A program made the translations under genes and the position numbers. Under the pieces are notes generated by a model. It did no database searches, had not been told where the DNA came from, and was given only the letters and a program-made list of their open reading frames with translations. From Arthrobacter sp. Bz4 (GTDB taxonomy: Bacteria > Actinomycetota > Actinomycetes > Actinomycetales > Micrococcaceae), in the NCBI RefSeq assembly GCF_003075455.1, contig NZ_QDAE01000017.1, positions 1 through 64,000 on the forward strand: a DNA stretch of 64,000 nucleotides, in the 5' to 3' direction. Of the stretch, positions 49,953 through 64,000 are shown in pieces. Numbering within the stretch: the first letter of the stretch is position 1; every line of letters starts with the position of its first letter.

Positions 49953-51248
49953 CTGGTAGGTCCACCCAGCGGCCCGCCACTGGACTGGATCCAGAACGTT
50001 ACGTCCGTCAAGAATGTTTTTGCTCGTTACCTGCGAGGCCAGGTCCGCCGGACTCAGCGAGCGGTACTGATCCCATTCAGTCAGGACCAGCAGGGCGTTG
50101 GCTTTGGTGACTGCCGCATTGAAATCGGGCTCGTAGGTTAGCTCCGGGAAACGACCCTTCGCATTACTCAGAGCCTCCGGATCGGTAACTGTCACGTCAG
50201 CGCCCTGAAGCTGGAGTTGGGCAGCGATGCTGAGTGCGGGGGAGTCCCTGACGTCGTCGCTATTGGGCTTGAACGCTACCCCCAACACAGTGATCCGTTT
50301 CCCGAGGAGCGATCCGCCCACCAACTGGCGGGTCAGCTCGACGACCCTGATCCGACGTCGGAGGTTGATGTCATCCACCTCCCGAAGGAAGGTCAGGGCC
50401 TGATCAGCGCCGAGCTCGCCCGCTCGTGCCATGAACGCACGAATGTCCTTGGGAAGACAGCCCCCGCCAAAACCGATGCCCGCGTTGAGGAACTTGCGGC
50501 CAATCCTGTCGTCCATCCCGATAGCGTCCGCCAGGAGGGTGACATCCGCTCCCGCCGCGTCGCATACTTCCGCCATCGCATTGATGAAAGAAATCTTGGT
50601 TGCCAAGAACGAGTTCGCCGCCGACTTGACCAGTTCAGCGGTGGCATAGTCGACAACCAGCCTCCTGGTGCCCAGCCCCATCGGTCCCGCATACACCTCA
50701 TCAAGCTGCTCGGTAGCCCGATGCCCGTCCTCGCCGGACGGCACTCCGTACACCAGTCGGTCGGGGCTAAGGGTGTCCTTGACGGCGAAGCCCTCTCGCA
50801 GGAACTCAGGGTTCCACGCCAGGGTGGCTTCGGGAAACCTCTCCAACAGGTCATCGGCGAGCCGCGCAGCAGTACCCACTGGAACCGTTGACTTCCCGAC
50901 CACCAGGTTTCCGGCCTCAAGCGCGTCAATGAGCGAGGAGAACGCAGCGTCCACGTATTTCAGGTCGGCGGCGTATTCGCCCTTCCGCTGCGGTGTCCCT
51001 ACGCAGAGGAAATGCACCTGCGAACCCCGGGCATCCGCGATGTTTGAGCTGAATTTTAGCCGGCCGGTTTGGAGGACTTCGTGAAGAAGCTCCGGCAGGC
51101 CGGGCTCGAAAAAGTGGGACCGGCCAGCCTGGAGTTCGCTGATCTTCCGCTCGTCCACATCGATTGCGACGACTTCGTGTCCCAACTTCGCCATGCAGGC
51201 CGCGTGAACTGCGCCAAGGTACCCACAACCGATAACAGATATTCGCAT
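49935..51248 (-). CDS. ugd: UDP-glucose 6-dehydrogenase
   Basis: Oxidises UDP-glucose to UDP-glucuronate for surface polysaccharides. The 437-residue product starts with MRISVIGCGYLGAVHAACMA (Rossmann GxGxxG), followed by the conserved STVPVGTA and NPEFLREGFAV, and the catalytic Cys in GFGGGCLPKDIRAF (about 258-271), then GVAFKPNSDDVRDSPAL. Convergent with prs; inserted between prs and rplY relative to the mycobacterial order. Confidence 0.96.
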   Translation of the reverse strand: MRISVIGCGYLGAVHAACMAKLGHEVVAIDVDERKISELQAGRSHFFEPGLPELLHEVLQTGRLKFSSNIADARGSQVHFLCVGTPQRKGEYAADLKYVDAAFSSLIDALEAGNLVVGKSTVPVGTAARLADDLLERFPEATLAWNPEFLREGFAVKDTLSPDRLVYGVPSGEDGHRATEQLDEVYAGPMGLGTRRLVVDYATAELVKSAANSFLATKISFINAMAEVCDAAGADVTLLADAIGMDDRIGRKFLNAGIGFGGGCLPKDIRAFMARAGELGADQALTFLREVDDINLRRRIRVVELTRQLVGGSLLGKRITVLGVAFKPNSDDVRDSPALSIAAQLQLQGADVTVTDPEALSNAKGRFPELTYEPDFNAAVTKANALLVLTEWDQYRSLSPADLASQVTSKNILDGRNVLDPVQWRAAGWTYQGIGRP

Positions 51249-51580
51249 GCTGATCCTTCGTACGGCCTGTCCGGGTTTCGTCGGGAAACCCGCCGGGCGT
51301 CCTCGATTTCAACGGTATGTGTCACACATTAGAGGATCATGAGGAACACCAGATGACGACGCCGGCTTCCGGGCTTCGGCGGTGTCCTTCCGGACGCTCA
51401 GGGTGCTGTAGGATTGAACGCGATGCCTAGGCGAGGGAGCATCCCGGTACCTCCGGGAATTGTTCCGTGATCGACGGTGGCTAGTGACGAGAGTCCAACA
51501 CTAAGCGTGTTGACTGTTTCTAGACAGATGCCGATCGTTTGCCCAGCAACGATCCACTACTCGTCAACACAGGAGACTCA
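51249..51580. promoter_or_regulatory. Divergent promoter region between ugd and rplY
   Basis: 332 bp without a gene. It contains the dyad ATGTGT-C-ACACAT (51317-51329), about 70 nt upstream of the ugd start, where a dimeric regulator of ugd could bind. A second dyad, CAACAC-N5-GTGTTG (51496-51512), overlaps a TTGACT (51510-51515) that may be the -35 of rplY. Regulators unknown. Confidence 0.35.
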
Positions 51581-52204
51581 ATGTCTGACCTCACGCTCCC
51601 CGCAGAAGTACGCACCGAATTCGGCAAGGGTGCAGCACGCCGCGCACGCCGCGAGGACAAAATCCCCGCGGTCATCTACGGCCACGGCGCCGATCCCATC
51701 CACGTTCTGCTGCCCTCCAAGGCCACCACGCTGGCACTGCGGACCTCCAACGCCCTGCTTACCCTCGACGTCGAAGGGGAAAAGCACCTCGCCCTCGCCA
51801 AATACGTGGTCCGCAACCCGCTGAAGCGCATCGTCGAGCACCTTGACCTCCTGACCGTTCGTAGCGGCGAGAAGGTCACTGTTGACGTCTATATCCACGT
51901 CGAAGGGGAACTGGCACCGGGTGCCGTCATGAACCTTGAGCACACCTCGGTTGAGGTTGAAGCAGAAGCAACCCATTTGCCGGATTCGCTGACCGTCAAC
52001 GTCGAGGGACGCACCGTCGGCGAGCACATCCACGCCTCAGACATCGAACTGCCGAAGGGCGTCACCCTGCTGATCGAAGACGACACCCTGATCGTCAACA
52101 TCAGCGAGCCGACCGTCCAGGACCTCGGCGAAGATGACGAAGAGACAGTCGCAGAAGGCGACGTTGTAGCTGCCTCCGGCGAGAAGTCAGAAGAAGGCGA
52201 GTAG
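51581..52204 (+). CDS. rplY: 50S ribosomal protein L25 / general stress protein Ctc
   Basis: Binds 5S rRNA in the large subunit. The 207-residue product is the long TL5/Ctc form: an N-terminal L25 domain (EFGKGAARRARREDKIPAVIYG) and a C-terminal beta domain with VNVEGRTVGEHIHASDIELP, followed by an acidic tail. The start is set by AGGAG 6 nt upstream of ATG. It is 19 nt from pth, so probably one transcript. Confidence 0.95.
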   Translation: MSDLTLPAEVRTEFGKGAARRARREDKIPAVIYGHGADPIHVLLPSKATTLALRTSNALLTLDVEGEKHLALAKYVVRNPLKRIVEHLDLLTVRSGEKVTVDVYIHVEGELAPGAVMNLEHTSVEVEAEATHLPDSLTVNVEGRTVGEHIHASDIELPKGVTLLIEDDTLIVNISEPTVQDLGEDDEETVAEGDVVAASGEKSEEGE

Positions 52205-52223
52205 CCACTTCTCCGGCGCGTTC

Positions 52224-52811
52224 ATGGCGACTGACTCCTGGCTTGTAGTCGGGCTCGGCAACCCCGGTCCCGACTACAGGCATAACCGGCACAATGTGGG
52301 ACAGATGGTTCTCGATGTCCTGGGCGCCCGGTTGGGCGGAAAGTTCAAAAGCCACAAAGCTCATGCCGCCGTGCTTGAGGGGCGGCTAGGTCTGGGTGGG
52401 CCGCGGTTGGTGCTCGCCAAGCCGCTGACCTTTATGAACCTGACAGGTGGCCCGGTGAACGCGCTGTGTCGGTTCTACGACATTCCCGCCGAGCGCGTTA
52501 TCGCGGTGCATGACGAGATTGACATCGACTTCAGCACGGTCAAGCTGAAGACCGGTGGCGGTGAAGGCGGACACAACGGGCTTCGCGACATTTCCAAGGC
52601 ACTCGGAACCAAGGATTACCTTCGGGTCAGGGTCGGAGTGGGTCGCCCGCCAGGCCGGCAGGATGCGGCTGACCACGTGCTCAGGGACTTCAGCTCGGTC
52701 GAGAAAAAGGACCTCGCGTTCCTTCTGGAAGATGTGGCCGACGCGGTGGAATCTCTCATCGTGGAGGGCCTTGTCAGCGCTCAGCAGAAGTTCCACTCCG
52801 CTGGGAAATAG
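52224..52811 (+). CDS. pth: Peptidyl-tRNA hydrolase
   Basis: Releases tRNA from prematurely dropped peptidyl-tRNA. The 195-residue product has GLGNPGPDYRHNRHNVG with the catalytic His (about 24), KPLTFMNLTGGPV, and VIAVHDEIDIDF...GGEGGHNGLRDI containing the other catalytic residues. Order rplY-pth is conserved. The hairpin at 52891 terminates the transcript. Confidence 0.96.
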   Translation: MATDSWLVVGLGNPGPDYRHNRHNVGQMVLDVLGARLGGKFKSHKAHAAVLEGRLGLGGPRLVLAKPLTFMNLTGGPVNALCRFYDIPAERVIAVHDEIDIDFSTVKLKTGGGEGGHNGLRDISKALGTKDYLRVRVGVGRPPGRQDAADHVLRDFSSVEKKDLAFLLEDVADAVESLIVEGLVSAQQKFHSAGK

Positions 52812-52890
52812 CGTATAAAGTAAGTTGACAACCACCGGTCAGGGACAGCCAAAGCCCAAACCGCGTCAGGCCTACTAGGCCCCAAATACG

Positions 52891-52952
52891 GGGGCCGACG
52901 TTGGGCGGCCTCTGAGACTGGGCCACCCCCATCCCAACGTCGGTCCCTTTTT
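52891..52952 (+). terminator. Nested hairpin terminator after pth, ahead of the LAL array
   Basis: Outer stem GGGGCCGACGTTGGG (52891-52905) with CCCAACGTCGGTCCC (52933-52947), fully paired with one G-U; inner stem GGCC (52907-52910) with GGCC (52921-52924), loop TCTGAGACTG; then TTTTTG. An upstream GGCCCC (52878-52883) could pair with GGGGCC (52891-52896) and compete with the outer stem. A related element lies at 58315-58370. Confidence 0.7.
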
Positions 52953-53060
52953 GTTGCCCTGGAACTTCTCCTGCCAGGCCCATGAAGCCGAGGTGCCGAT
53001 TCGGCGTGTAATCGGGGCTAAGGATCCGAGTAGTCGTTGCGTGATGCCGCTCGGAAAATC

Positions 53061-53075
53061 GAGTAGTCGCTACTC
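53061..53075 (+). promoter_or_regulatory. Dyad GAGTAG-TCG-CTACTC upstream of LAL regulator A1
   Basis: Perfect 6-bp inverted arms, 3-bp spacer, 74 nt before the A1 start. A direct repeat of the left half (CGAGTAGTCG) lies 33 nt upstream at 53027-53036, and AAGGATCC is repeated at 53020 and 53091. A closely similar dyad precedes the second regulator pair. The 337-bp gap 52812-53148 has no gene, only the pth hairpin and these sites. Binding by the array's own LuxR domains is inference. Confidence 0.55.
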
Positions 53076-53148
53076 ATGCGCGCGATCAGCAAGGATCCTA
53101 TGGTGATCAGTACTTCACACGCTGGGAACGCGAAGGGCTGGTCTCTCC

Positions 53149-55473
53149 ATGAGTTTCGACCTTAATACGTATGTTTACCAAACCCCCCTATCATCACCGG
53201 GCTGTCCCCCGACGAATATGGTTTCTGGTGCGGGACAGGTTCAGCCGCCAACGGCGGGGATCCGCAGACAGCTCGCGGATTCAGTATGCGACCAGTTGGT
53301 TAATGAATCCGGCCCTCCTGGGGTGATTATCGTGGGTGAGGCCGGAAGCGGCAAGACGACAGTACTGCGATCGGTGATTGACCGTTTGCGATCGAGTACT
53401 TGCATTATTCATTTACGTGGCTCGAACCACGATACCCAATTGCGCTACGGCGCCTTGCGCGTACTACTTGCCGACTTGCCCGTCAACATTCTGGAGCACC
53501 CAGTACGGGTAATCACCGGCCTGACCCAGTTACTCGAAGAGCGTGCGTTAGGTCTCCCCAAAATTATTGTGGTCGACGACTCTGAGCTTCTTGATGAGGG
53601 TTCTGCAACCGTGCTGGGGCAGTTGGCTCAAACGGGATCAATTCGGCTACTCGCCGCCTGCGATAATCTTTCAAAAGCGCCAGTTTGTTTCCAGGATCTT
53701 TGTCGGAAGCAAACTCTTGCTCAGGTCAATCTGGCATCGATGACTCAACAAGATGTGGCCGCCGATATGAAGTCCGCTTTAGGGGGAGTGGTGTGTCGGG
53801 CGGCCTCGCTTTTTCTTCATCGGCAGAGTGGAGGAAACCCCCGGCTTCTGAACGCACTAGTAGACGACTACCTCTCCTCGGGTGCGCTGCGCTGTGTCAG
53901 TGGAGTTTGGGTGCTGACTGCTGCCGAGGTGGATCTGGGTCCGGCATCGGCCCGCATAGTGATGGACCAGATTGCAGCTCTCGAACCGTCGCAGCAGCAG
54001 CTGCTTGATGGCCTAGCGGCGGCCGAGGCTACTCCCCTGGCCGCAGTTGCGGCAGATCAATTAGGTGATCTGGATGCACTTCACGAACTGAAGATGGTGT
54101 CGATCGAGAGGGATCATCGGGCTGTCGTCTCGGTCACTGGCCCCCTGCTCAGGGATGCCCTCCTCGGGAGAGCTAGCCGGGTCGATCTGCGGTGGGCAGA
54201 ACAGACAATCGGTTGGGACCCATTGTCTGCCCGGACAGAGAATGATCTCGCGTCCGCGGGACACTTGAACCGCGCGTATCGAGCAGCTTACGACGGCGAT
54301 TATCGTCGGACTATCGACGAGTTGACGTCGCCGACGTTTGATCCTTATGCAATTGATCGAGGCGAGCGTCTTCAGGTATCCATTCTGATGTGTGAAGCCT
54401 TAGCTTTCACCGGCCGAGAGGATGAGGCAAGAGAGACAGCGAAGGCTTTTGCCCCTTCTCGCCTTTCAGACGGCCGGCCGCAGTTGGCACGAATTGCCGT
54501 CACGTTGGCAACGCTGGAAGCAGTGAGTGGAGACATGACGGCGATGCTCGAGGTGGCGGGGCGACACCTCGGTGGGGCGGGACGAAGCACCGGAACGTAT
54601 GAAGAAATCGTCGAGGGTTTGGTCCACGCTGTTGGAGGCCGTCCCGTTGAGGCTGAAAGTTTCTTGACTCCGGCTCTGTCCCAGCTTCAAATATCTGATC
54701 CTGGTGGGGTAACTCCGCTGGTCGCTGCAGCCTTAGCCTGGATTACCTCGGAAGATTCCCCAGAGCGCGCAGAACGATATTTACTGGCGGCCTCTAATCC
54801 GTCCAATAAGGTGCCGTGGATAGTGCGAAGACTAACCAAGCACTTTGCCGCATTGGCTTTGCAGGGCATTGTTTCCGCTGATAGAGCTGCACTTGCATTG
54901 AAGGCCCTCATTGAAGAAGACGGAGAGCGGGGAAACTCTTTCTGGCAACTGCTGACGTTGTCCCACGTACTGAGGCTCGGGGACCAGAGTGTGGCACGGT
55001 CGGTTATGAAACTGGGAGTGACCTGCCAGGGGCGCTACGCATCTCTTTGCGCGCTGTATGCCAAGGGGGTCGAGACGGAAGACCCCGATCTGGTGTTGGA
55101 GGCAATGGGCATAGCCCGGACAAATGGTGACCTGCCATTTGCCCGTGACGCCGCCGCAGCAGCGACTCAGCTCGCTGATCAGTCGGAATGTGCCGGGCTT
55201 AGGGCACATGTCGCTGACCGGGTGCGCGGGATTATTGGATCGACCAGTACAGCTCTAGGGGCACGCCGACAGCTAGCATCCCTAACGACGCGCGAATTAG
55301 AAGTTGTGAAAGCAATGGTGGAGGGCACTACCAACCGGGATCTTGCAACAACTTTGGGGGTCAGCGTCCGCACCGTCGAAGGGCATTTATATCGTGTCTA
55401 CACAAAACTGCACGTCCGGACGAAGTCAGAGTTGCTAGCCAAAGTTGCACTCGGCGAGGTAACCACACAATGA
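53149..55473 (+). CDS. LAL-type LuxR family regulator A1 (AAA ATPase + LuxR HTH)
   Basis: Large transcription factor of 774 residues. The N-terminal AAA/STAND ATPase has Walker A GEAGSGKT (63-70), a YGAL motif (100-103) and intact Walker B VVDD (141-144). The middle (about 300-690) is helical, TPR-like, and probably senses a ligand or partner. The C-terminal LuxR HTH (about 710-774) reads LTTRELEVVKAMVEGTTNRD, then SVRTVEGHLYRVYTKLHV. It resembles the third regulator of the array (A2) more than its direct neighbour, e.g. QLRYGALRVLLADL against GMQYGALNFVLTEL. Overlaps B1 by 4 nt (ATGA). Lower GC than genes before 53 kb. Target genes unknown. Confidence 0.88.
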   Translation: MSFDLNTYVYQTPLSSPGCPPTNMVSGAGQVQPPTAGIRRQLADSVCDQLVNESGPPGVIIVGEAGSGKTTVLRSVIDRLRSSTCIIHLRGSNHDTQLRYGALRVLLADLPVNILEHPVRVITGLTQLLEERALGLPKIIVVDDSELLDEGSATVLGQLAQTGSIRLLAACDNLSKAPVCFQDLCRKQTLAQVNLASMTQQDVAADMKSALGGVVCRAASLFLHRQSGGNPRLLNALVDDYLSSGALRCVSGVWVLTAAEVDLGPASARIVMDQIAALEPSQQQLLDGLAAAEATPLAAVAADQLGDLDALHELKMVSIERDHRAVVSVTGPLLRDALLGRASRVDLRWAEQTIGWDPLSARTENDLASAGHLNRAYRAAYDGDYRRTIDELTSPTFDPYAIDRGERLQVSILMCEALAFTGREDEARETAKAFAPSRLSDGRPQLARIAVTLATLEAVSGDMTAMLEVAGRHLGGAGRSTGTYEEIVEGLVHAVGGRPVEAESFLTPALSQLQISDPGGVTPLVAAALAWITSEDSPERAERYLLAASNPSNKVPWIVRRLTKHFAALALQGIVSADRAALALKALIEEDGERGNSFWQLLTLSHVLRLGDQSVARSVMKLGVTCQGRYASLCALYAKGVETEDPDLVLEAMGIARTNGDLPFARDAAAAATQLADQSECAGLRAHVADRVRGIIGSTSTALGARRQLASLTTRELEVVKAMVEGTTNRDLATTLGVSVRTVEGHLYRVYTKLHVRTKSELLAKVALGEVTTQ

Positions 55474-58154
55474 GCATTCAGGCCGAACCTGGCGGGCTTA
55501 TTGGTCGCGAAAGGGAGGTTGAGGAGATTTCGGCGAGCATTATGAACCCGACCATTGGTGGTGTTTTGGTCTGTGGCCCCTCGGGCATCGGTAAAACGGC
55601 AGTTGTAGACTCCGTGCTGGATCGGTTGAAGTCGAAAACCTTATCGGTTACCGTTTACGCCGATTCAACCCTTAGATGCGTTCCCTATGGTGCGCTGGCG
55701 CCGGTGATCGGGGGTCAGTATCTATCCGATGTAGGCTCGCCCCTTTCAGTACTCCGCCTCATCAAATCGGGTCTTCGGACAACCGCAGCTAGCGATCTTC
55801 GGCTGCCGGTGTTGGTCGTCCTGAGGAATGCCCACCACCTAGATGAGGATAGCGGTCACCTACTAGGACAGCTTGCGGTTGCCGGGGAAATTCGGCTGCT
55901 AGCAGTTTCCGATGAACCCGGGGACAAACCCATAGAACTTCATGAGCTTTGGCGGGATGGACTAGTCAAGCGGGTTGACCTCGCGGCACTTAGCCGTGAT
56001 CAGACCGCTCGACTCTGTCAGCAGCAGCTTGGAGGCACAGTCAGTGCAGGCACTGTAGCTTTGATTTTTGACTGGTCTCAAGGGCGCCCCTACCTTGCCA
56101 GGGCGCTCATCTCCCACTTCATCAGCGCTGGGGCCTTGGTTGAGACAAACGGTGTCTGGTTAATCTCCTCTACCCCGGAGTCTTTAGGTGATGTGCTTCT
56201 TGATCGTGTGAAGAATATCCTCAACGAATGTAGCCCGGCCGAACGCCAGGTGGTGGAAGCGGTTGCATCGGTGGGATGCATGCCCGTGGCCCTTGCTGGG
56301 AAAATTCTGGACGCGGTTGCGATGGACGGAGCGTTTCAGCTCAATCTTCTGGCCTACTCAAACCATCATGGCGGCGCCAAGAGTTGCATAACAGTCGCAC
56401 CAAAGTTGTATGGAGAAGTTATTACAAGCCTCATGCCACCGGGCAGGCGTGTCCAGATCATTCGATGGCTCCAAGAATCGGTGGTGGGTCAGAGTGAATT
56501 GGAGGCCGTCTGCGCCAGTACCCTCGTTACATTCAAGTTGGAACTTGGCTACTCCGTTGACGATCACGATTTGCTAGAAGCGGCACGGCAGGCGAACAAC
56601 GGTTATGCGCCCGGCCTTGCTGAACGTTTTTCTGCGGCAGTAACCTCACGTCAATTCGCCATTGCTGCTCGGGTAGAAAACGCGCGGAGCCTGTTGGGCC
56701 TTGCCGACATTGAAGCCGCAGCGTCCGAAGTTTCTGGCCTGATCGAAAGCGCAACAGATGTGTACACCCTTTGTGCGGCGGCGGTCACCGAGGCACAGAT
56801 TTACCTGCGAGGTGGGGGAGGGCCTGATGGTCTCCTGGCCATAGCGGGAAGGTGGACTAAAGCCGGACATCGACTGCCTCCAGAACAGTTCTTTCACCTC
56901 GAGCGGGGCTCTGCGGTCTTGAAGAATTTAGCATTCAGCCTCGCAGGGGATTATGCCGCCGCCATTTCGGGGCTTCGGCAAATAGTTGAGGAACACTCAC
57001 CGGAGACTCTCGCTAGCGGTTTTGCCCGGGTGCTACTTGGGGAATTGTCGGCGATCACAGGGCGCGCATCCGATGTTAGTGGAACTGTGTGGCGAGCAGT
57101 TTCGGAGACAAGGCCCGGAGGACTGATGGCTGATCACTATCGGGCTATCATCACCCGACAGGGTGTGCTGTCGGTGCAGATCAGAGACGACGCAGCAGTC
57201 GCCCAATTACTGCAATGGCATGAGCAGAACGCTCCGAAACAGGTTCAATACTTTGGCGGGGAAATGACGGCTATCGAAGGAATGATGGAGGTTCGACGCG
57301 GGCGAGTAAGAGCTGGGTGTGAACTACTGGCCGATGGAATCGAAGTGTTGCGATATTCCGATCCAGAATTGGTGCTGCCACTGGCGCTCGGTACTGCCGC
57401 TTTTGCTTGGGGACTTGTCGGCAGGCTGGACAAGTCCACCTCCTATGCACACGATTTAGATGCGCTCCCCTACCAAGGAGACCTACCCCGGCGGCTGGTC
57501 TCCAATGCCTATGTGACAGTTGCACGGTCGTGGCCCGCCGTGAATGCGCCTGATTTATCGGTCGTGGTGGCACGGGCCGATCAAGCCCGGTCCCTCGGAT
57601 TAGTCCACGCTGAAGCCGAGATTCTTGAGATTCTTTTTTTGTTGCAGCATCCAGTGCCGCAGCAGCGATTTCGAACTGTCTCTGAGCGCATTGACGGAAT
57701 CGGCTCTGAAGCTGCTTACATTATGGCTGAGGTGGCCGAATCAAACGATCCAGCTCGATTCACCGCAGCTAGTGATCGGGCGCTAGACAGTGGTCTGCTG
57801 CTGCTAGGTGCTGAATGTCTCGCCAGGGCGGCCGTCTGCTATAACCGTCTGGGGAAGTGGAGGGCCCAACACGCTGTATTACAGCGATTGCGCGGGCTGG
57901 GTCACACGCTCGGGGATGTCCGCACAGCTGCGATTAGTGACAACGCAATGGCCCGGGTCGCGCTAACCCGGCGCGAAAAGGAGATCGCCGCCCTCGCTGC
58001 AGAAGGGGCTGCTACAAGCGAGATAGCGCACAGCCTCACGGTGTCTCCCCGGACAGTAGAGGGGCATCTTTACCGGGTTTATTTGAAGCTTGGTATCAGC
58101 GGTCGTGACGAACTGATGCGGGGATTCGTTTCTGCAGGAGTTACGCCCAAATAG
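55470..58154 (+). CDS. LAL-type LuxR family regulator B1
   Basis: Protein of 894 residues. GREREVEEI at residues 12-20 opens the ATPase; Walker A is GPSGIGKT (36-43), followed by VPYGALAPVI. At the Walker B position it reads LVVLRNAHHLDE (115-126), lacking the usual Asp-Asp, so ATP hydrolysis may be lost. After a long helical repeat region, the HTH is LTRREKEIAALAAEGAATSE and SPRTVEGHLYRVYLKLGI. Closest partner in the array is B2 (e.g. YFGGEMTAIEGMMEVRRGR against LFGGMLEYFEGVVALRQGK). Start overlaps the A1 stop; 450 bp of leader separate it from A2. Confidence 0.88.
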   Translation: MSIQAEPGGLIGREREVEEISASIMNPTIGGVLVCGPSGIGKTAVVDSVLDRLKSKTLSVTVYADSTLRCVPYGALAPVIGGQYLSDVGSPLSVLRLIKSGLRTTAASDLRLPVLVVLRNAHHLDEDSGHLLGQLAVAGEIRLLAVSDEPGDKPIELHELWRDGLVKRVDLAALSRDQTARLCQQQLGGTVSAGTVALIFDWSQGRPYLARALISHFISAGALVETNGVWLISSTPESLGDVLLDRVKNILNECSPAERQVVEAVASVGCMPVALAGKILDAVAMDGAFQLNLLAYSNHHGGAKSCITVAPKLYGEVITSLMPPGRRVQIIRWLQESVVGQSELEAVCASTLVTFKLELGYSVDDHDLLEAARQANNGYAPGLAERFSAAVTSRQFAIAARVENARSLLGLADIEAAASEVSGLIESATDVYTLCAAAVTEAQIYLRGGGGPDGLLAIAGRWTKAGHRLPPEQFFHLERGSAVLKNLAFSLAGDYAAAISGLRQIVEEHSPETLASGFARVLLGELSAITGRASDVSGTVWRAVSETRPGGLMADHYRAIITRQGVLSVQIRDDAAVAQLLQWHEQNAPKQVQYFGGEMTAIEGMMEVRRGRVRAGCELLADGIEVLRYSDPELVLPLALGTAAFAWGLVGRLDKSTSYAHDLDALPYQGDLPRRLVSNAYVTVARSWPAVNAPDLSVVVARADQARSLGLVHAEAEILEILFLLQHPVPQQRFRTVSERIDGIGSEAAYIMAEVAESNDPARFTAASDRALDSGLLLLGAECLARAAVCYNRLGKWRAQHAVLQRLRGLGHTLGDVRTAAISDNAMARVALTRREKEIAALAAEGAATSEIAHSLTVSPRTVEGHLYRVYLKLGISGRDELMRGFVSAGVTPK

Positions 58155-58202
58155 TAGGCGCGTAACGCTGTTCCGCCTTGAAGTAATCGCGGCCCGTAAT
58201 AC

Positions 58203-58217
58203 GAGTAGCTCCTACCC
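58203..58217 (+). promoter_or_regulatory. Dyad GAGTAG-CTC-CTACCC upstream of LAL regulator A2
   Basis: Same as the site at 53061 with one arm mismatch, and the match extends downstream: CGAGTAG-N3-CTAC(T/C)C(A/G)TG(C/T)G. It lies 49 nt after the B1 stop and about 390 nt before A2. The 450-bp gap 58155-58604 has no gene, only this site, the nested hairpin at 58315 and an AT-richer stretch (58430-58490) that could hold a promoter. Confidence 0.5.
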
Positions 58218-58314
58218 GTGTGTGGTCACCGGTCGTTTAATTACGCTTCAGTAGTCTCCCAAAGCAGGGCGCGCTGGCGAAATACCGTTCGCCTGCGGTG
58301 GTGGACCCACGGTC

Positions 58315-58370
58315 GGGCCGGCGGCGGACAGCCTCCTGAGACCGGGCTGACCCCAGCCCGTCGTCGGCCC
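58315..58370 (+). ncRNA. Nested hairpin in the A2 leader, related to the element at 52891
   Basis: Outer stem GGGCCGGCGGCGG (58315-58327) with CCGTCGTCGGCCC (58358-58370), 13 bp with two G-U pairs. Inner stem AGCC (58330-58333) with GGCT (58345-58348), loop TCCTGAGACCG sharing CTGAGAC with the first copy; linker GACCCCA against ACCCCCAT. No T-run follows, so simple termination is less likely than for copy 1. Could be a structured leader RNA. Confidence 0.45.
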
Positions 58371-58604
58371 CACCTTGATAACCACAGCATGCGACAGATA
58401 GTTGTTCCGGCAGGTGGCTGAGAGATATGTCATCCTTTTTAGTGCCTTATTCATCGATCCAGCGTATCGTTATGGTCTAATGCGGTCGGCGTAGGGACGT
58501 TCTCTACATCACCGTAAGACCTGGAGGCGGGAGACAGCCGCTTCCTCGGAACTGCCGGGCTGGGACGACTCGCCGTGCCGACCTGCACCATGTAGTGGGG
58601 CGCT

Positions 58605-61250
58605 ATGTTTGCGGTGCAAGGAGACTGGCCGATTATTGGCCGGGATGAAGAGTTGGACAAACTGCGGGAAGCCGTGCGCAGATCAGACTGTCGCGGTGCG
58701 ATATTGACGGGTCAGGCTGGAATAGGCAAAACGGTTCTGGCGCAGAAGGTGGCCCGCGAGGTCGATGAGGACTATGAGCTTCTCTACATCAGGGGGAGTG
58801 CACTCACCTCGGGTATGCAGTATGGAGCGCTCAATTTTGTTCTCACGGAGCTGGACGATGAGGCCGTCGACAACCCTCTGATCCTCCTGAAGAGTTTGCG
58901 GGATCTGTTTTCAAAACGGATAGCTGGCAAGCAGACACTTATACTTGTTGATAACTTAGAGGATCTAGACAGCGCCTCTGCGATGGCGATAGCACACCTT
59001 GTTCGGGCCGGAGCCGCCAAAGTGCTCCTCATTTGTCAACACCTTCAGGCCGCACCCGACGATTTTAGCGACCTCTGGAAAGACGATCTTATTCACCGGG
59101 TCGATGTCAAACCGTTGTCCCTTGCTGACTCCAATCGATTACTCACCGCAGGGCTTCCTGGATCGGTGTCCCGATCCGTTGTCCTGGATATGTGGCATGC
59201 CAGTGGCGGCAATCCGCTATTCCTGCAGGCCATCGCCCGGGAGCAAGTCGAATCTGGCTACATCACCACCCAAGACGGCATCTGGGTGTCAGGCTCCCGG
59301 AAGACGCCGGATCCTGGTCGTATTATCACCGAACGGATCTCCACCAGTCTCGATCGGTTGACCCCAAATCAGCGAAAAACAGCAGAAATCGTCTCAATCG
59401 TCGGCGTGATCCCGCTGGAACTTCTCGATGAATTCTCGGGCGAGGCCGAGTTGGATGCACTCGTCGAAACAGGGGTCTTCCAGATCGATCATACGCAGCG
59501 GCCGATGGTTCGAATCGCTGTTGGTTTGATCGGCGACGTGATTCGACGACAGGTTCCACTCGGCCGGAGCCGGGACCTTCTTCACCAACTCGCAGCTTCC
59601 TCACTCAGCTTGCCGATGCCAGCGTTAAGCCGGATGAATTATGCGGCTTGGTGCCTGGAATGCTCGATGGACATCGCTCCGAAGTTAGCGATTGACGCCG
59701 CACGGTTAGCGAACCGCTATTACGACACGGATAGTGCACTTCGGTTCTTGAAGGCTGTTCCAGAAGAATTGAAGGGCGCATCGGAAGTCACAGAAGAAGC
59801 ACGTGCATACGGGATACAGGGCGAGACTGATCGAGCGCTGGCCATTCTTGACAAAAATGATGGGTATGCACAGAACAGTTCGTTGCATGAGTGGGTCGGC
59901 ATCCAAATGCTCAGGTGTCGACTCCTCACTAAGAATCCTGATCGTCACACGCAAGTGGATAGCATTCTCCACTTGGTTCGCGAGCGGGTGCAGGAAGAAC
60001 AAGCCGACCACGGGGGTTCGGACGGATTGTTGGTCGAAATCGAGTTACTCGACGCCGAGTTGAGGGCGTACAACGGCAGGTACACATCGATGATTGAGCC
60101 CCTGGATGAGCTACTCAAGCAGGGCGAAGCGATGGATCCAGCTGTGCGTCATCAGTTCTGTGGCTGGCTGGCAGAGGCACTGAGTATGACAGGTCGCCAG
60201 GAAGACGCTGTTCAACTCAGTCGCCTAGTGGTGCTGCGATTATCCGACACCGACGAAGACCCGCTACTCGCAGAGTCCGCCTGGGCACGGCTGTTTTCAG
60301 TCATGCTGATTTCCGGCGAATGGGAACAGTGTCTATCAATGCTGAGTGAACATACGCAAGGATCACTTGCCGGGATCTTTGATGGGACCTCTCTCGAGCT
60401 AGCAGAAGGGTGTCTCTACGCCTACGCCGGCCGGGGTGATGACGCACTCGCTAAGCTCCTTCCAGCCGTCAGCCAGCTTAGGATTCGTGATCACCAGGAT
60501 TTCCTGTCTCTTGCGGAAGCCGCGACTGCATACTCGTACTCCCTCACTGGGGATGTGAAATCATCGATGTCCCACCTCAAGGAGGTGGACTTAGAATCTC
60601 GCCGGTATGACTGGCATACCAGCCGGGCGACTCGGTACTTTGCCGTTCTGGCGTCAACTGCGACCCGCGACCCCCTCCACGCGGCCCAAGACATGCTCGA
60701 GCTAGCAGACGAGGATAGGGCTGAAGGAAACTTGGGACACGAGCTATTTTTTCTCTGCCAGGCAGTCCAGCTCGGACTGGACGATGTGGCTGAGCGGCTA
60801 GCCACGAGCGGGATGGACAGCCAAGGTGCCTACGCAGCTACCTGCGCGCTGTACGGAAAAGGAATAGCATCAGGAGACGCGGACCAGATGCTCAGAGCAG
60901 CCCAGATGGCCGCCGGAGTTGGTAACCTCCGGTTGGCTGTCGATGCTGCTTCCCTCGTGCAGAGACTGACTGCAGGCAGCGCATCGGAAGGAGATAGGGC
61001 GGCCGCTGTCGCCGCGGACGATGTACTCCGATCGCTCGGGCGCGGAAGTGGGGAGTTACGCCAACGGGCGCTTGAAAGCCTAACCGAGAGAGAGCGAGGC
61101 ATAGCACTACTCGTCGCCGAGGGATCGACCAACCGGCAGATAGCTTCGATACTCACCTTGTCCATCCGAACGGTCGAAGGACACATTTATCAGGTATATG
61201 CCAAATTGGGTGTGTCGAACCGTAGCCAGCTGAAGATGATCCTTGCGTAG
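58605..61250 (+). CDS. LAL-type LuxR family regulator A2
   Basis: Protein of 881 residues. GRDEELDKL (12-20), Walker A GQAGIGKT (36-43), YGAL (73-76) and Walker B LVDN (114-117), where the second Asp is replaced. The helical middle and the region GAYAATCALYGKGIASGDAD match A1's GRYASLCALYAKGVETEDPD. HTH: LTERERGIALLVAEGSTNRQ and SIRTVEGHIYQVYAKLGV. The last codons overlap the B2 start by 8 nt. Start ATG has GGGG about 8 nt upstream. Confidence 0.88.
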   Translation: MFAVQGDWPIIGRDEELDKLREAVRRSDCRGAILTGQAGIGKTVLAQKVAREVDEDYELLYIRGSALTSGMQYGALNFVLTELDDEAVDNPLILLKSLRDLFSKRIAGKQTLILVDNLEDLDSASAMAIAHLVRAGAAKVLLICQHLQAAPDDFSDLWKDDLIHRVDVKPLSLADSNRLLTAGLPGSVSRSVVLDMWHASGGNPLFLQAIAREQVESGYITTQDGIWVSGSRKTPDPGRIITERISTSLDRLTPNQRKTAEIVSIVGVIPLELLDEFSGEAELDALVETGVFQIDHTQRPMVRIAVGLIGDVIRRQVPLGRSRDLLHQLAASSLSLPMPALSRMNYAAWCLECSMDIAPKLAIDAARLANRYYDTDSALRFLKAVPEELKGASEVTEEARAYGIQGETDRALAILDKNDGYAQNSSLHEWVGIQMLRCRLLTKNPDRHTQVDSILHLVRERVQEEQADHGGSDGLLVEIELLDAELRAYNGRYTSMIEPLDELLKQGEAMDPAVRHQFCGWLAEALSMTGRQEDAVQLSRLVVLRLSDTDEDPLLAESAWARLFSVMLISGEWEQCLSMLSEHTQGSLAGIFDGTSLELAEGCLYAYAGRGDDALAKLLPAVSQLRIRDHQDFLSLAEAATAYSYSLTGDVKSSMSHLKEVDLESRRYDWHTSRATRYFAVLASTATRDPLHAAQDMLELADEDRAEGNLGHELFFLCQAVQLGLDDVAERLATSGMDSQGAYAATCALYGKGIASGDADQMLRAAQMAAGVGNLRLAVDAASLVQRLTAGSASEGDRAAAVAADDVLRSLGRGSGELRQRALESLTERERGIALLVAEGSTNRQIASILTLSIRTVEGHIYQVYAKLGVSNRSQLKMILA

Positions 61251-63933
61251 GTCTGAGACAGCTGAAGATATACGCTCCCCTCCAACTCATTTGGTTGGGA
61301 GACAAGTCTTGGTCGCTCAAATCCTTGAGCAGTTATCCGAAGCCCATCTTTATGGCGCCCTGGTGGTTGGCGAGCCAGGACTAGGTAAAACTGCCCTGTC
61401 CAGGGCCATCGTCGATGCTCTGGCCGATGAGGCGACCGTTATTCGCATCGGGGCTCAGCCATCTTTGAAAAAGGTTCCTTATGGTGCAATTGCACCGTAT
61501 TTAACGGACCTGTCAGTGGCGGACGCGGGGTCGCCCATCGCGATCTACCGTGCACTCACTAAGCACTTAGGGCAGCAAAAGCCCGGGACTCCGGCGCCGC
61601 TGTTCGTTGTAGACGATGCACACGACCTCGACGATAGTACAAGCGTCCTACTCACCCAGCTCATCGCCACTCGAAGGGCTCGGGCCCTAGTGCTCGCCCG
61701 ACCAACGCCAGGACCGCCGTCTGAGTTCCTCGCGCTCTGGCACGACAATATTTTGCATCGATATGACCTTGGTCCGTTGAATTTCCAAGAGATCCATGAG
61801 CTTTGCGTGAGGGAGCTAGGGGATCAGATTCTTTCAAGCGTGACTGCTCTCCTCAGCAAGACCTCAGAGGGCAATCCCATGTTCTTGCTGGCTTTGCTCC
61901 ACTCGGATACACGTGCGAAGTTTCTCGTCGAGCGAAATGGAGTTTGGTGTCTGGCGGGTGAGCGTCCTGAGATTGACCTTCGACTTACTGACCTCATCCG
62001 GGGACAGTTGCGCGGGCGCACTCCGGCCGAGCTGGAGGTACTCGAAACCGTAGCGCTGGCTGAACCCGTAGCGCTCGGCATTCTGCGGACGAGTTGCGAT
62101 CCCGAAGCCATCGATGCCTTAGCCAGGGACCAGCTGGTGGCCTTTTCGGAAGGAACCGACAAAGGGGTCGCCCTAGCTCACCCTTTGTATGGCGAAGTAA
62201 TACGGGCTCTTGTGCCGATTGGACGAAGTATAGCTATTCGGAGACGCCTCCTGACGCTTTCGGAGTATCAGACAGGGTCAATCGAAGGGTTTCTTCGCTG
62301 GGTTTCGTGGGGCCTTGACTGTGGCGCCAGCATCGACGATGCCACCCTACTGAGGGCTGCAATCGTTGCCAACCGATTGTACGATCCCGCCTTTGCGCTT
62401 CGAGCAGCCCGGGAAGTCCAGGCTCCCGAACTCAGATCACGCGCGCTCATCGAAATTGCCCATGCCCGGATGACTAGGGGCGACTTCACTTACGCACGCG
62501 AGCTGATAGACGAAACCCTGCAGAACTGCGTAAGCCTGCGGATCGCAAAGGAAGCGACATTGCTTTCAATAGACCTGCGGATGCGGTCCAGAAGCAACTC
62601 TGCTGAGATCCGACGTGATGCAGATCGATGGGCCGAGACTATCGACCGAATCGAGCAGCAGCAGGTCGGCGTTTCGGATCGATCCTTGCGGCGCTCCAGG
62701 CTCGGATGCCGCATACTGACGTGCTTCGTGATGAATCTGGATGGTCAGTACCAGGAGTCAGAGAAGTATCTTCTTGAGGTTCGAGATCATCCGGAAGGAA
62801 CCGATGAGACTCGCCTTGCGGCGCTCGCTCTCTTAGGAGAGGTATTTGGGGCGACCGGGCGAGCCCTAGCGGGCGCTGCTGCGACCGCTGAAGCTTTGGC
62901 AATCATTGCGGAGCACGGTCACCGATTCTTGCGTCACCAAGAATTCGTGATTACCCGGCACGGAATGTCGCTAGTCCGGGCGGGATCATGGAAGGAAGTT
63001 GGAACCCTACTGGCGGATCACTCGCAGCCCACCGATGGCGGGATGATGCTCTTCGGGGGGATGCTCGAATACTTTGAAGGGGTCGTTGCCTTGCGCCAGG
63101 GCAAAATGCGGACAGCACGCAAGCGGCTAATACTCGCTGTTGAGGGTTTCAGGGAGTCGGACGTTGCGCAGCTTATGACGATATCGACCGGAATGGCAGC
63201 CTATGCATGCGCAATGGCGGGCGATAGTGCTGGCGCTCAACAGTATGCGAGTGAGTTCGCCGCCCTGCCAGCTTATGGTCCCCTTCAGTCTCGACTCCTA
63301 GGACAGATCTACGTGGTGGGCGCTGAGGCGAGGTTCAAGGGTGCGGCGGGAAGCATCGCTGAACTTCGCAGGATTGCTCACTATGCAAGTAATTCGGGCA
63401 TGAAAGCTTTGGCGGCCTCGGCATTGGAACTCGCAGTCCGGCTCGGCGACACAGCGTCCCTCCCCTCGCTTGACGAGATTACCTCCGTTTTTGAAGGTGT
63501 TGACGGCGCAGTTGTGAATTCTATGGCCGCGGCGATGCGGGCAAAGGAAGCTGCCGCTCTGGAGTCAGCAGCAGTGAAAGCCAAGAACGCGGACTACCCG
63601 CTCATCGCGGCCGAATGCTACGGAACGGCGATTAACATACTCGCTCATAATGGGGCGGGGCAACGGGCACGTGCCCTGCAGTCTCCTTTGAACGAGCTAA
63701 TCGAAAAGCTTGAAGGATTACAAAGGCCCCAATTCTCTGAGTCTCAGTCAGCGACGAAGCTGACGGAACGCGAGCGCGACATCGTCACCCTAGCCTCCCG
63801 GGGGCACTCCAACCGCGACATTGCTGAGCAACAGGGAGTATCGGTGCGCACGGTTGAGGGGCACCTCTACAGGATCTTTGCAAAACTAGGCATCAGCCGG
63901 CGCGAGGATCTCCGGGATGTGGACCCAACGTAG
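61243..63933 (+). CDS. LAL-type LuxR family regulator B2
   Basis: Protein of 896 residues beginning with TTG inside the A2 3' end, so it depends on coupled translation. LVGRQVLVAQ (17-26), Walker A GEPGLGKT (43-50), VPYGAIAPYL (78-87) and intact Walker B VVDD (122-125). Similar to B1 throughout. HTH: LTERERDIVTLASRGHSNRD and SVRTVEGHLYRIFAKLGI. The stop codon TAG is within a dyad that resembles the leader sites. No later start for the frame preserves the GR motif, so TTG is likely right. Confidence 0.87.
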   Translation: MRRSETAEDIRSPPTHLVGRQVLVAQILEQLSEAHLYGALVVGEPGLGKTALSRAIVDALADEATVIRIGAQPSLKKVPYGAIAPYLTDLSVADAGSPIAIYRALTKHLGQQKPGTPAPLFVVDDAHDLDDSTSVLLTQLIATRRARALVLARPTPGPPSEFLALWHDNILHRYDLGPLNFQEIHELCVRELGDQILSSVTALLSKTSEGNPMFLLALLHSDTRAKFLVERNGVWCLAGERPEIDLRLTDLIRGQLRGRTPAELEVLETVALAEPVALGILRTSCDPEAIDALARDQLVAFSEGTDKGVALAHPLYGEVIRALVPIGRSIAIRRRLLTLSEYQTGSIEGFLRWVSWGLDCGASIDDATLLRAAIVANRLYDPAFALRAAREVQAPELRSRALIEIAHARMTRGDFTYARELIDETLQNCVSLRIAKEATLLSIDLRMRSRSNSAEIRRDADRWAETIDRIEQQQVGVSDRSLRRSRLGCRILTCFVMNLDGQYQESEKYLLEVRDHPEGTDETRLAALALLGEVFGATGRALAGAAATAEALAIIAEHGHRFLRHQEFVITRHGMSLVRAGSWKEVGTLLADHSQPTDGGMMLFGGMLEYFEGVVALRQGKMRTARKRLILAVEGFRESDVAQLMTISTGMAAYACAMAGDSAGAQQYASEFAALPAYGPLQSRLLGQIYVVGAEARFKGAAGSIAELRRIAHYASNSGMKALAASALELAVRLGDTASLPSLDEITSVFEGVDGAVVNSMAAAMRAKEAAALESAAVKAKNADYPLIAAECYGTAINILAHNGAGQRARALQSPLNELIEKLEGLQRPQFSESQSATKLTERERDIVTLASRGHSNRDIAEQQGVSVRTVEGHLYRIFAKLGISRREDLRDVDPT

Positions 63934-63945
63934 CTGTTACTACGT
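63928..63945 (+). promoter_or_regulatory. Dyad ACGTAG-CTGTTA-CTACGT at the end of the array
   Basis: Perfect 6-bp arms, 6-bp spacer, overlapping the B2 stop. GTAG/CTAC core as in the two upstream dyads but with wider spacing, followed by GATCAC as the 53061 site is followed by GATCA. May belong to the next gene beyond the window or be a chance palindrome. Confidence 0.3.
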
Positions 63946-64000
63946 GATCACTGCGGCGTGCTGCGTACGGCATCCGCTCGCGGCAAGTAACACCTTCTGA

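Follow-up and report, generated by a model that had tools for sequence, protein, structure and literature searches.

Co-inherited pairs of LAL-type regulator genes and their predicted promoters in Arthrobacter sp. Bz4 and related genomes

STAND proteins (signal transduction ATPases with numerous domains), among them the LAL activators (large ATP-binding regulators of the LuxR type), the immune NLRs and the Avs defence proteins, are mostly pictured as one-subunit assemblies or as sensor-helper sets, and MalT, the maltose activator of Escherichia coli, acts as one protein. Several Streptomyces gene clusters carry more than one LAL gene, according to the accessible portions of two reports (PMC3282765 and PMC6784220). 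Here we describe four adjacent LAL genes, A1, B1, A2 and B2, on a 64,000-nucleotide stretch of the Arthrobacter sp. Bz4 genome (contig NZ_QDAE01000017.1; hereafter the window, G000:C17:1-64000 in our numbering, in which G000 is the window's own genome, the G numbers are compared genomes and the L numbers are named loci). Because the A and B proteins split into two clades with mirror-image branching, we regard the A-B pair as an inherited unit. The four open reading frames (ORFs) are as follows.

53149..55473, forward strand: A1, 774 aa, type I A-protein, LAL/STAND activator (ORF, Pfam AAA_16 and GerE, clade with type I A proteins)
55470..58154, forward strand: B1, 894 aa, type I B-protein, ATGA overlap with A1 (ORF, Pfam, tree)
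58605..61250, forward strand: A2, 881 aa, type II A-protein (ORF, Pfam, tree, AlphaFold2 model)
61243..63933, forward strand: B2, 896 aa, type II B-protein, TTG start, 8-nt overlap with A2 (ORF, Pfam, tree, AlphaFold2 model)

An earlier note on this DNA had described four adjacent LAL-type regulators in the order A1-B1-A2-B2, and its lengths (774, 894, 881 and 896 aa) agreed exactly with the ORFs, as did the overlaps of 4 nt (ATGA) between A1 and B1 and of 8 nt between A2 and B2 and the 450-bp gap between B1 and A2 (58155-58604); the motifs quoted for A1/A2 and B1/B2 were present in the translations. G007 and G009, the closest relatives, share both the TTG start of B2 and its 8-nt overlap. All four proteins carry an N-terminal AAA_16 domain and a C-terminal LuxR-type GerE helix-turn-helix (HTH; PF00196) above the Pfam cut-offs, and in size (within about 770-1000 aa), N-terminal ATP-binding domain and C-terminal LuxR/GerE HTH all of them correspond to LAL proteins. 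AlphaFold2 models of A2 and B2 (mean predicted local distance difference test, 88.6 and 88.0, respectively) and their structural matches place a helical-repeat sensor arm after the nucleotide-binding oligomerization domain (NOD), as in STAND/MalT-like proteins, and the helical part of the B2 model resembles MalT domain III. No full-length template emerged by sequence among the best 60 PDB matches per profile, which cover mainly the HTH or P-loop region. Neither a SARP domain (Trans_reg_C plus BTAD) nor the autoinducer-binding domain of quorum-sensing LuxR proteins was found among the matches listed at E<=0.1 for the four proteins (for A1, the best 25 of 26).

Pairwise alignment and phylogeny both grouped A1 with A2 and B1 with B2, as the earlier note had proposed. 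B1 and B2 aligned over 892 columns (28%, 266 bits) and A1 and A2 in two stretches (35% over 391 columns, 162 bits; 28% over 304, 119 bits); A1 and B1 aligned in the N-terminal half (115 bits) and the HTH (50 bits), and A2 and B2 in the N-terminal half only (137 bits). A wider set comprised 101 LAL rows from 23 genomes of the genus and G028, with G022 excluded (fragment match only). Two fragments of a type II B in G008, split by a frameshift, were dropped together with the one pair that thereby lost its B, which left 98 tree rows and 47 intact pairs; in these the upstream member was termed A and the downstream member B. With FastTree (98 rows), these position-based roles need one change: all 47 upstream members fall into one clade and all 47 downstream members into the other. 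IQ-TREE (32 rows, no outgroup) supported the branch between A and B at 99/97, and this split also took in the G028 pair, which comes from another family, and a third type of pair (G000:C6:119144-124254). The opposite topologies were rejected by the approximately unbiased test with 16 rows, both for A1 with B1 (P = 6.5e-4) and for A2 with B2 (P = 6e-54). A separate tree used four long ORFs as outgroups, and its root was left unused because two of them (L089 and L091) look wrong-frame. Judged from the alignments, the A/B alternation is far beyond chance.

The same trees bear on whether A and B are ordinary tandem paralogues, that is, a local LAL family expansion without common function. LAL genes are numerous in actinomycetes, and A and B are recognisably paralogous; such an expansion, however, predicts that neighbours are most alike, whereas the grouping of A1 with B1 is rejected, and the recurrence of A-B-A-B with short gaps in 21 of the 70 named loci also speaks against it. 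We consider this explanation highly improbable.

The distance matrices of A and B in the 47 pairs were correlated with r = 0.962 (0 of 2000 permutations as high), and when partners were swapped within the 18 genomes with at least two pairs, the mean correlation was 0.36 and 0 of 2000 swaps reached the observed value. For 37 of the 47 pairs, the nearest A in another genome was the partner of the nearest B. When roles were instead set by profile score, the 93 adjacent LAL neighbours in the 70 named loci comprised 86 AB, 4 BA, 2 AA and 1 BB. The commonest ORF overlap in the 47 pairs was 4 nt (18 pairs), followed by 1 nt (6 pairs); larger overlaps probably stem from choosing the first possible start codon. 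Thus, the two clades by position, the matched distances and the AB order in 86 of 93 cases bear out the earlier view that the coupled A-B pair is the unit. The coupling was also said to be strict, and here only part of the claim stands: pairing is the rule but not absolute, since 4 of the 101 LAL rows are singles and a B-type LAL gene in G001 (C34:271953-274727), which is a natural loss of A, lies directly behind an operator and -10 box (see below) with no A between. Both observations speak against strict coupling.

An A-profile match at E<=1e-40 was present in 60 of 296 genomes of the class, and outside the family, near-contiguous neighbours occurred only in G028 among the matches listed (three candidates scored per genome). 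The third, divergent pair type, located at G000:C6:119144-124254, G007:C193:82266-87334 and G009:C1:3571681-3576749, has no canonical operator, and its B proteins lack the Walker-B Asp.

Inheritance as a pair could also be accounted for if A and B were independent activators, adjacent through operon history and forming separate homo-oligomers at different promoters, as reported for GdmRI/GdmRII, with no A-B complex. Consistent with this, Walker A and a complete HTH are kept in nearly all members of both classes (the Walker A Lys in 45 of 47 A proteins, with 2 gaps, and in 43 of 47 B proteins; B1 has Arg for the Walker-B Asp, LVVLRNAH), and single A-type and B-type genes occur, the G001 B-type gene standing alone behind its promoter. 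In the accessible part of the GdmRI/GdmRII report, neither LAL is dispensable and, in one strain, each is expressed independently of the other, but the two genes are separated by other genes (PMC6784220). The A-B order and adjacency, by contrast, have outlasted several moves within the genome (the places of types I, II and III differ), and two clean clades with almost perfectly matched distances in 47 pairs are likewise not what independent activators would predict. We regard this explanation as a real, if somewhat doubtful, possibility.

The earlier note had further read the arrangement as a pair duplicated at this place, which did not hold: the orthologues of A1-B1 are the type I pairs and those of A2-B2 the type II pairs, both across the genus, and the orthology of each pair rules out a recent local duplication. 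Upstream of A1, Pfam recognised a hexapeptide/nucleotidyl transferase (which we take, from gene order, to be glmU), ribose-phosphate pyrophosphokinase (prs), UDP-glucose dehydrogenase (other strand), ribosomal L25/TL5 (rplY) and peptidyl-tRNA hydrolase (pth). The type I pair follows the glmU-prs genes (named by resemblance) in G003, G023 and G006. The type II A gene lies directly behind pth and its hairpin in G004, G021, G002 and G017, and therefore the window's A1-B1 sits between; the type I pair occupies this place, between the post-pth hairpin and A2, in G000, G007 and G009. Since both pair types occur genus-wide and A1-B1 lies between pth and A2-B2, no duplication took place here. On this comparative evidence, A1-B1 and A2-B2 are probably two ancient, co-inherited operons. 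The leader DNA between B1 and A2 had no match on plasmids.

Three predicted promoters, those of A1, of A2 and of an exopolysaccharide (EPS) operon expected behind B2 (P_EPS), have a common layout, in which an operator with the consensus ACGAGTAG-N3-CTACTCGT adjoins a -10 box.

53008..53104, forward strand: P_A1, predicted promoter; GTA boxes at 53008 and 53030 (-55 and -33), operator at 53059-53077 (TCGAGTAGTCGCTACTCAT), -10 TATGGT at 53099-53104
58162..58247, forward strand: P_A2, predicted promoter; GTA boxes at 58162 and 58183 (-43 and -22), operator at 58201-58219, -10 TACGCT at 58242-58247
63965..64000 in the window, forward strand: P_EPS, predicted promoter; boxes at 63965 and 63987, and beyond the window on the same contig a box at 64017, the operator (GTA at 64041) and the -10 (CATAGGCT)

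The window ends 230 bp short of the contig end (contig, 64230 bp), and the P_EPS boxes have offsets of -76, -54 and -24. In P_A2, the -10 is one base further from the operator than in type I promoters, the box offsets (-43 and -22) are identical in G007 and G009, and two more GTA, at -51 and -9, fit the phase described below more poorly. A1 has a perfect palindrome, GAGTAG-N3-CTACTC, some 75 bp ahead of it, and B1 is followed by a copy with one mismatch. Three matches at <=2 mismatches in the window are not unusual per se (8 of 100 shuffles reach three); the weight lies on the conservation of the operator in relatives. In the alignment, TTCCTAGGCT-like -10 boxes come after it at a constant distance, and no good -35 is present. 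We disfavour the view that the operator is just an RNA hairpin or terminator: its left half, TTCCGTAG, and its right half, CCACTCGT, are both conserved in several type I promoters in which they do not pair with each other.

Upstream of 34 operator promoters, AGTA boxes numbered 57 against 15 in the opposite orientation. The phase set was made up of 34 promoters, the ones among 87 sites that had a -10 and sufficient DNA upstream, and was reduced to one per group of <=55% identity; the resulting 25 groups had 37 versus 8 boxes by orientation (mononucleotide shuffles: mean 5.6, maximum 15). Apart from a few, the box offsets cluster at -20 to -22, -31 to -33 and -53/-54. The phase statistic, for which no period was set beforehand, peaked at 10.6-10.8 bp (R 0.75) with a mean phase of zero to the operator, a value reached by 0 of 5000 random sets. 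This places the predicted boxes in the same orientation on one helical face, with a period of about 10.7 bp. MalT-like STAND activators work from arrays of repeated sites in front of their promoters, and the phased boxes are a candidate for such an array.

The operator with its -10 was found at 36 sites in 30 of 197 family genomes, compared with 3 control sites, and an A-type LAL (E<=1e-30) was present in 30 of these 30 genomes versus 113 of 197 overall (hypergeometric, 8.5e-9, relatedness ignored). At the 30 sites with a locus, the gene behind was an A-type LAL in 13 cases, an EPS sugar transferase in 4 and a UDP-glucose dehydrogenase in 2 (one by near-identical sequence), and one was the window's own contig-end site. 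A slightly wider operator and -10 pattern was applied to 56 further named loci, where it stood before none of the 83 B genes and before 18 of the 1120 random pieces. The defining genomes' own 14 loci were set aside, but independence is not complete: L314 is closely related to one of those genomes, and L316 is the same genome as G212 of the family-wide scan.

Several observations weigh against the regulatory model proposed below. In the same 56 loci, the pattern precedes only 12 of 74 A genes. Of the 48 A genes of the genus, no more than 13 have the operator upstream; its position is -86 to -89 for seven of them and between -42 and -159 for the other six, whose starts were chosen differently. 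The operator is often missing from type II pairs, and just 30 of the 113 LAL genomes combine it with a -10. The remaining 10 of the 30 sites lie before other or unclear genes, one of them a polysaccharide deacetylase gene. The bare operator is not enriched, with 84 exact matches versus 205 for the reversed control in 24 genomes and, at <=3 mismatches in three genomes, 10 versus 58-81 per genome and strand. Finally, a conserved operator-like palindrome lies 45-71 bp 3' of an M23 peptidase gene (Pfam PF01551) in three genomes (G000:C26:21580, G007:C43:33539 and G009:C1:3488492; the genes beyond differ); we do not claim the peptidase as a regulon target, as the site lies 3' of the ORF.

The operator and boxes might instead be owned by another regulator, e.g., BTAD/SARP-type activators, with the LAL genes merely among the targets. 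The motif TACTCGT is close to the TACYYMT half-site of NarL-type HTHs, presumably as expected for a LAL HTH, which we count against such an owner. Operator-like sites do precede BTAD genes in several species, and a BTAD orthologue (E<=1e-25) is commoner in operator genomes (10 of 30) than overall (29 of 197); it is nevertheless absent from 20 of the 30, a result that disfavours BTAD/SARP ownership, whereas an A-type LAL is present in 30 of 30. In the accessible part of one report (PMC5930380), SARP regulators are described as probably binding direct repeats with a spacing of 11 nt, a value near the 10.7-bp phase. Overall, ownership by such a regulator appears unlikely to us.

The BTAD (SARP-like) genes with an operator-like site in front were noted at G000:C21:28252-28284 (with a -10) and at L112, L184, L185, L150 and L156, and BTAD regulators are a possible downstream layer of the regulon. 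A different recurring site, AGGTAG-N3-CTACTCGTG, precedes small ORFs at L149, L151, L154, L159, L160, L165 and L180; some of these ORFs have an excisionase-like HTH by eye, and the spacing and -10 are unlike those of the LAL promoters.

P_EPS leads to an EPS sugar transferase gene in G007 and G009. The G007 gene encodes a polyprenyl glycosylphosphotransferase (TIGR03025, above cut-off), G009 has a near-identical ORF, and the window genome's own copy, which shares 78% identity with the G007 one, lies at G000:C9:116764-118257. On the other side, the window's own P_EPS meets the contig end before its gene. From the genes behind these predicted promoters, the paired regulators probably control exopolysaccharide.

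Besides the operator, a structured RNA element recurs in these regions, with two copies in the window.

52885..52961, forward strand: post-pth RNA copy with a U-run, between pth and P_A1 (covariance model match)
58308..58385, forward strand: structured leader RNA of A2, starting 103 nt past the operator (cmsearch E 6.5e-11; covariation on relatives)

The element covaries and has two helices, the loop YGAGACC and the linker CCCCAG; it is also present at L033:13036-13115. In the post-pth hairpin, the loop is invariant and the stem covaries. The core pattern of the hairpin (<=2 mismatches) occurs once each in 44 of 197 family genomes versus 2 control matches, and at all 33 loci inspected (30 genomes) the hairpin lies downstream of pth, at 53-285 nt in 32 and at 1620 nt in one. 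In 23 hairpin sequences, 9 of 19 pairs change on both sides and 99.3% of cells pair (0 of 500 shuffles as high); the number of further pair types in these sequences, by contrast, is not above shuffles (352 of 500 as high). The covariance model found a third copy in the window genome (G000:C9:118297-118376), 40 bp before its sugar transferase gene. Copies 220-273 nt behind an operator stand directly before sugar-transferase-like ORFs in G007 and G062 (called by family search) and in G009, G008, G011, G012, G013 and G019 (by resemblance), and in G041 a copy lies 251 nt behind the operator, before an ORF with a CoA_binding_3 match. RNAalifold gave two helices for 19 operator-linked copies, with double changes in 10 of 17 pairs; these copies were found by a model already holding the outer stem. 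None of the 4227 Rfam covariance models matched at E<=5 in the window from 51000 to 64000 or at E<=1 in L317, L359 and L364, and our own covariance model, under strict filters, gave 2 weak matches in 293 class genomes (G000, G046 and G075 excluded). EAR and ops are antitermination signals in EPS leaders, and the leader RNA is like them by position, in idea only. From its place and fold, the element could be an EPS-leader attenuator or antitermination element.

We consider it fairly probable that A1-B1 and A2-B2 are MalT-like STAND activator pairs that are co-made and activate both themselves and EPS genes, binding and an A-B complex being the conjectural parts. Each operon would encode paralogous MalT-type STAND activators with an ATP-binding NOD, a helical-repeat sensor arm and a LuxR-type HTH. 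The proteins from the overlapping A and B genes would own the operator and assemble, probably together, as an ATP- and signal-dependent oligomer, several protomers lying along the boxes and the last one, at the operator, recruiting RNA polymerase. The pair would thereby activate its own operon and the adjacent EPS operon autocatalytically, and the structured RNA of the A2 and EPS leaders probably acts as a second control after initiation. More tentatively, we propose an obligate two-subunit STAND activator spread through much of the family, in which A and B co-assemble on the phased array and drive their own and the EPS operon, with transcripts that pass a family-specific leader hairpin.

If true, the system would amount to a MalT-type switch that is hetero-oligomeric and tied to RNA control. 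A STAND pair that is genetically fixed, whose promoter code can be read and whose output is likely to be EPS would allow hetero-assembly to be tested in an ordinary soil bacterium, and would give access to LAL genes that otherwise go by the name of orphan "LuxR solos". Its predicted direct targets are EPS, surface and BTAD regulator genes, and it brings along a covarying leader RNA without an Rfam match.

Compared with MalT, the type member of the LAL/STAND regulators, the window encodes two linked paralogues with another operator and another target set. In size and architecture, the window proteins are like the Streptomyces LALs AbsR2, PikD, RapH, NysRI/NysRIII and GdmRI/GdmRII, and their best NCBIfam resemblance is to AbsR2, far below the cut-off. 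These named LALs are mostly antibiotic-cluster regulators; GdmRI and GdmRII are not overlapping neighbours, and the accessible portions of the reports describe no family-wide A/B clades. The SARP-LAL PimR has cooperative heptameric direct-repeat operators upstream of its promoter, as predicted here for the boxes; however, PimR binds via its SARP domain, without a LuxR HTH, whereas the window proteins have GerE and no BTAD match (PMC5930380, accessible part).

The earlier note knew of no described system with this architecture. In the parts of the open-licence literature covered, we likewise found no paired LAL system of the A-B kind, nor the pair inheritance, phased array or leader RNA of these regulators; single LAL genes, the airR genes of Arthrobacter agilis UMCV2, have, however, been published (PMC9659744, accessible part). 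The size range of cluster III there, 507-916 aa, fits two ORFs in G008, of which the one with 507 aa is a type II B fragment and the one with 916 aa a type I A; from these lengths we infer both to be airR genes. By protein length only, the airR genes induced by dimethylhexadecylamine (DMHDA) may thus include members of A-B pairs; the accessible text of that paper treats them as LuxR solos, with no pair, operator or EPS link. The proteins themselves are known LAL/STAND regulators, and what appears new is the shared promoter layout, the inheritance as pairs and the leader RNA.
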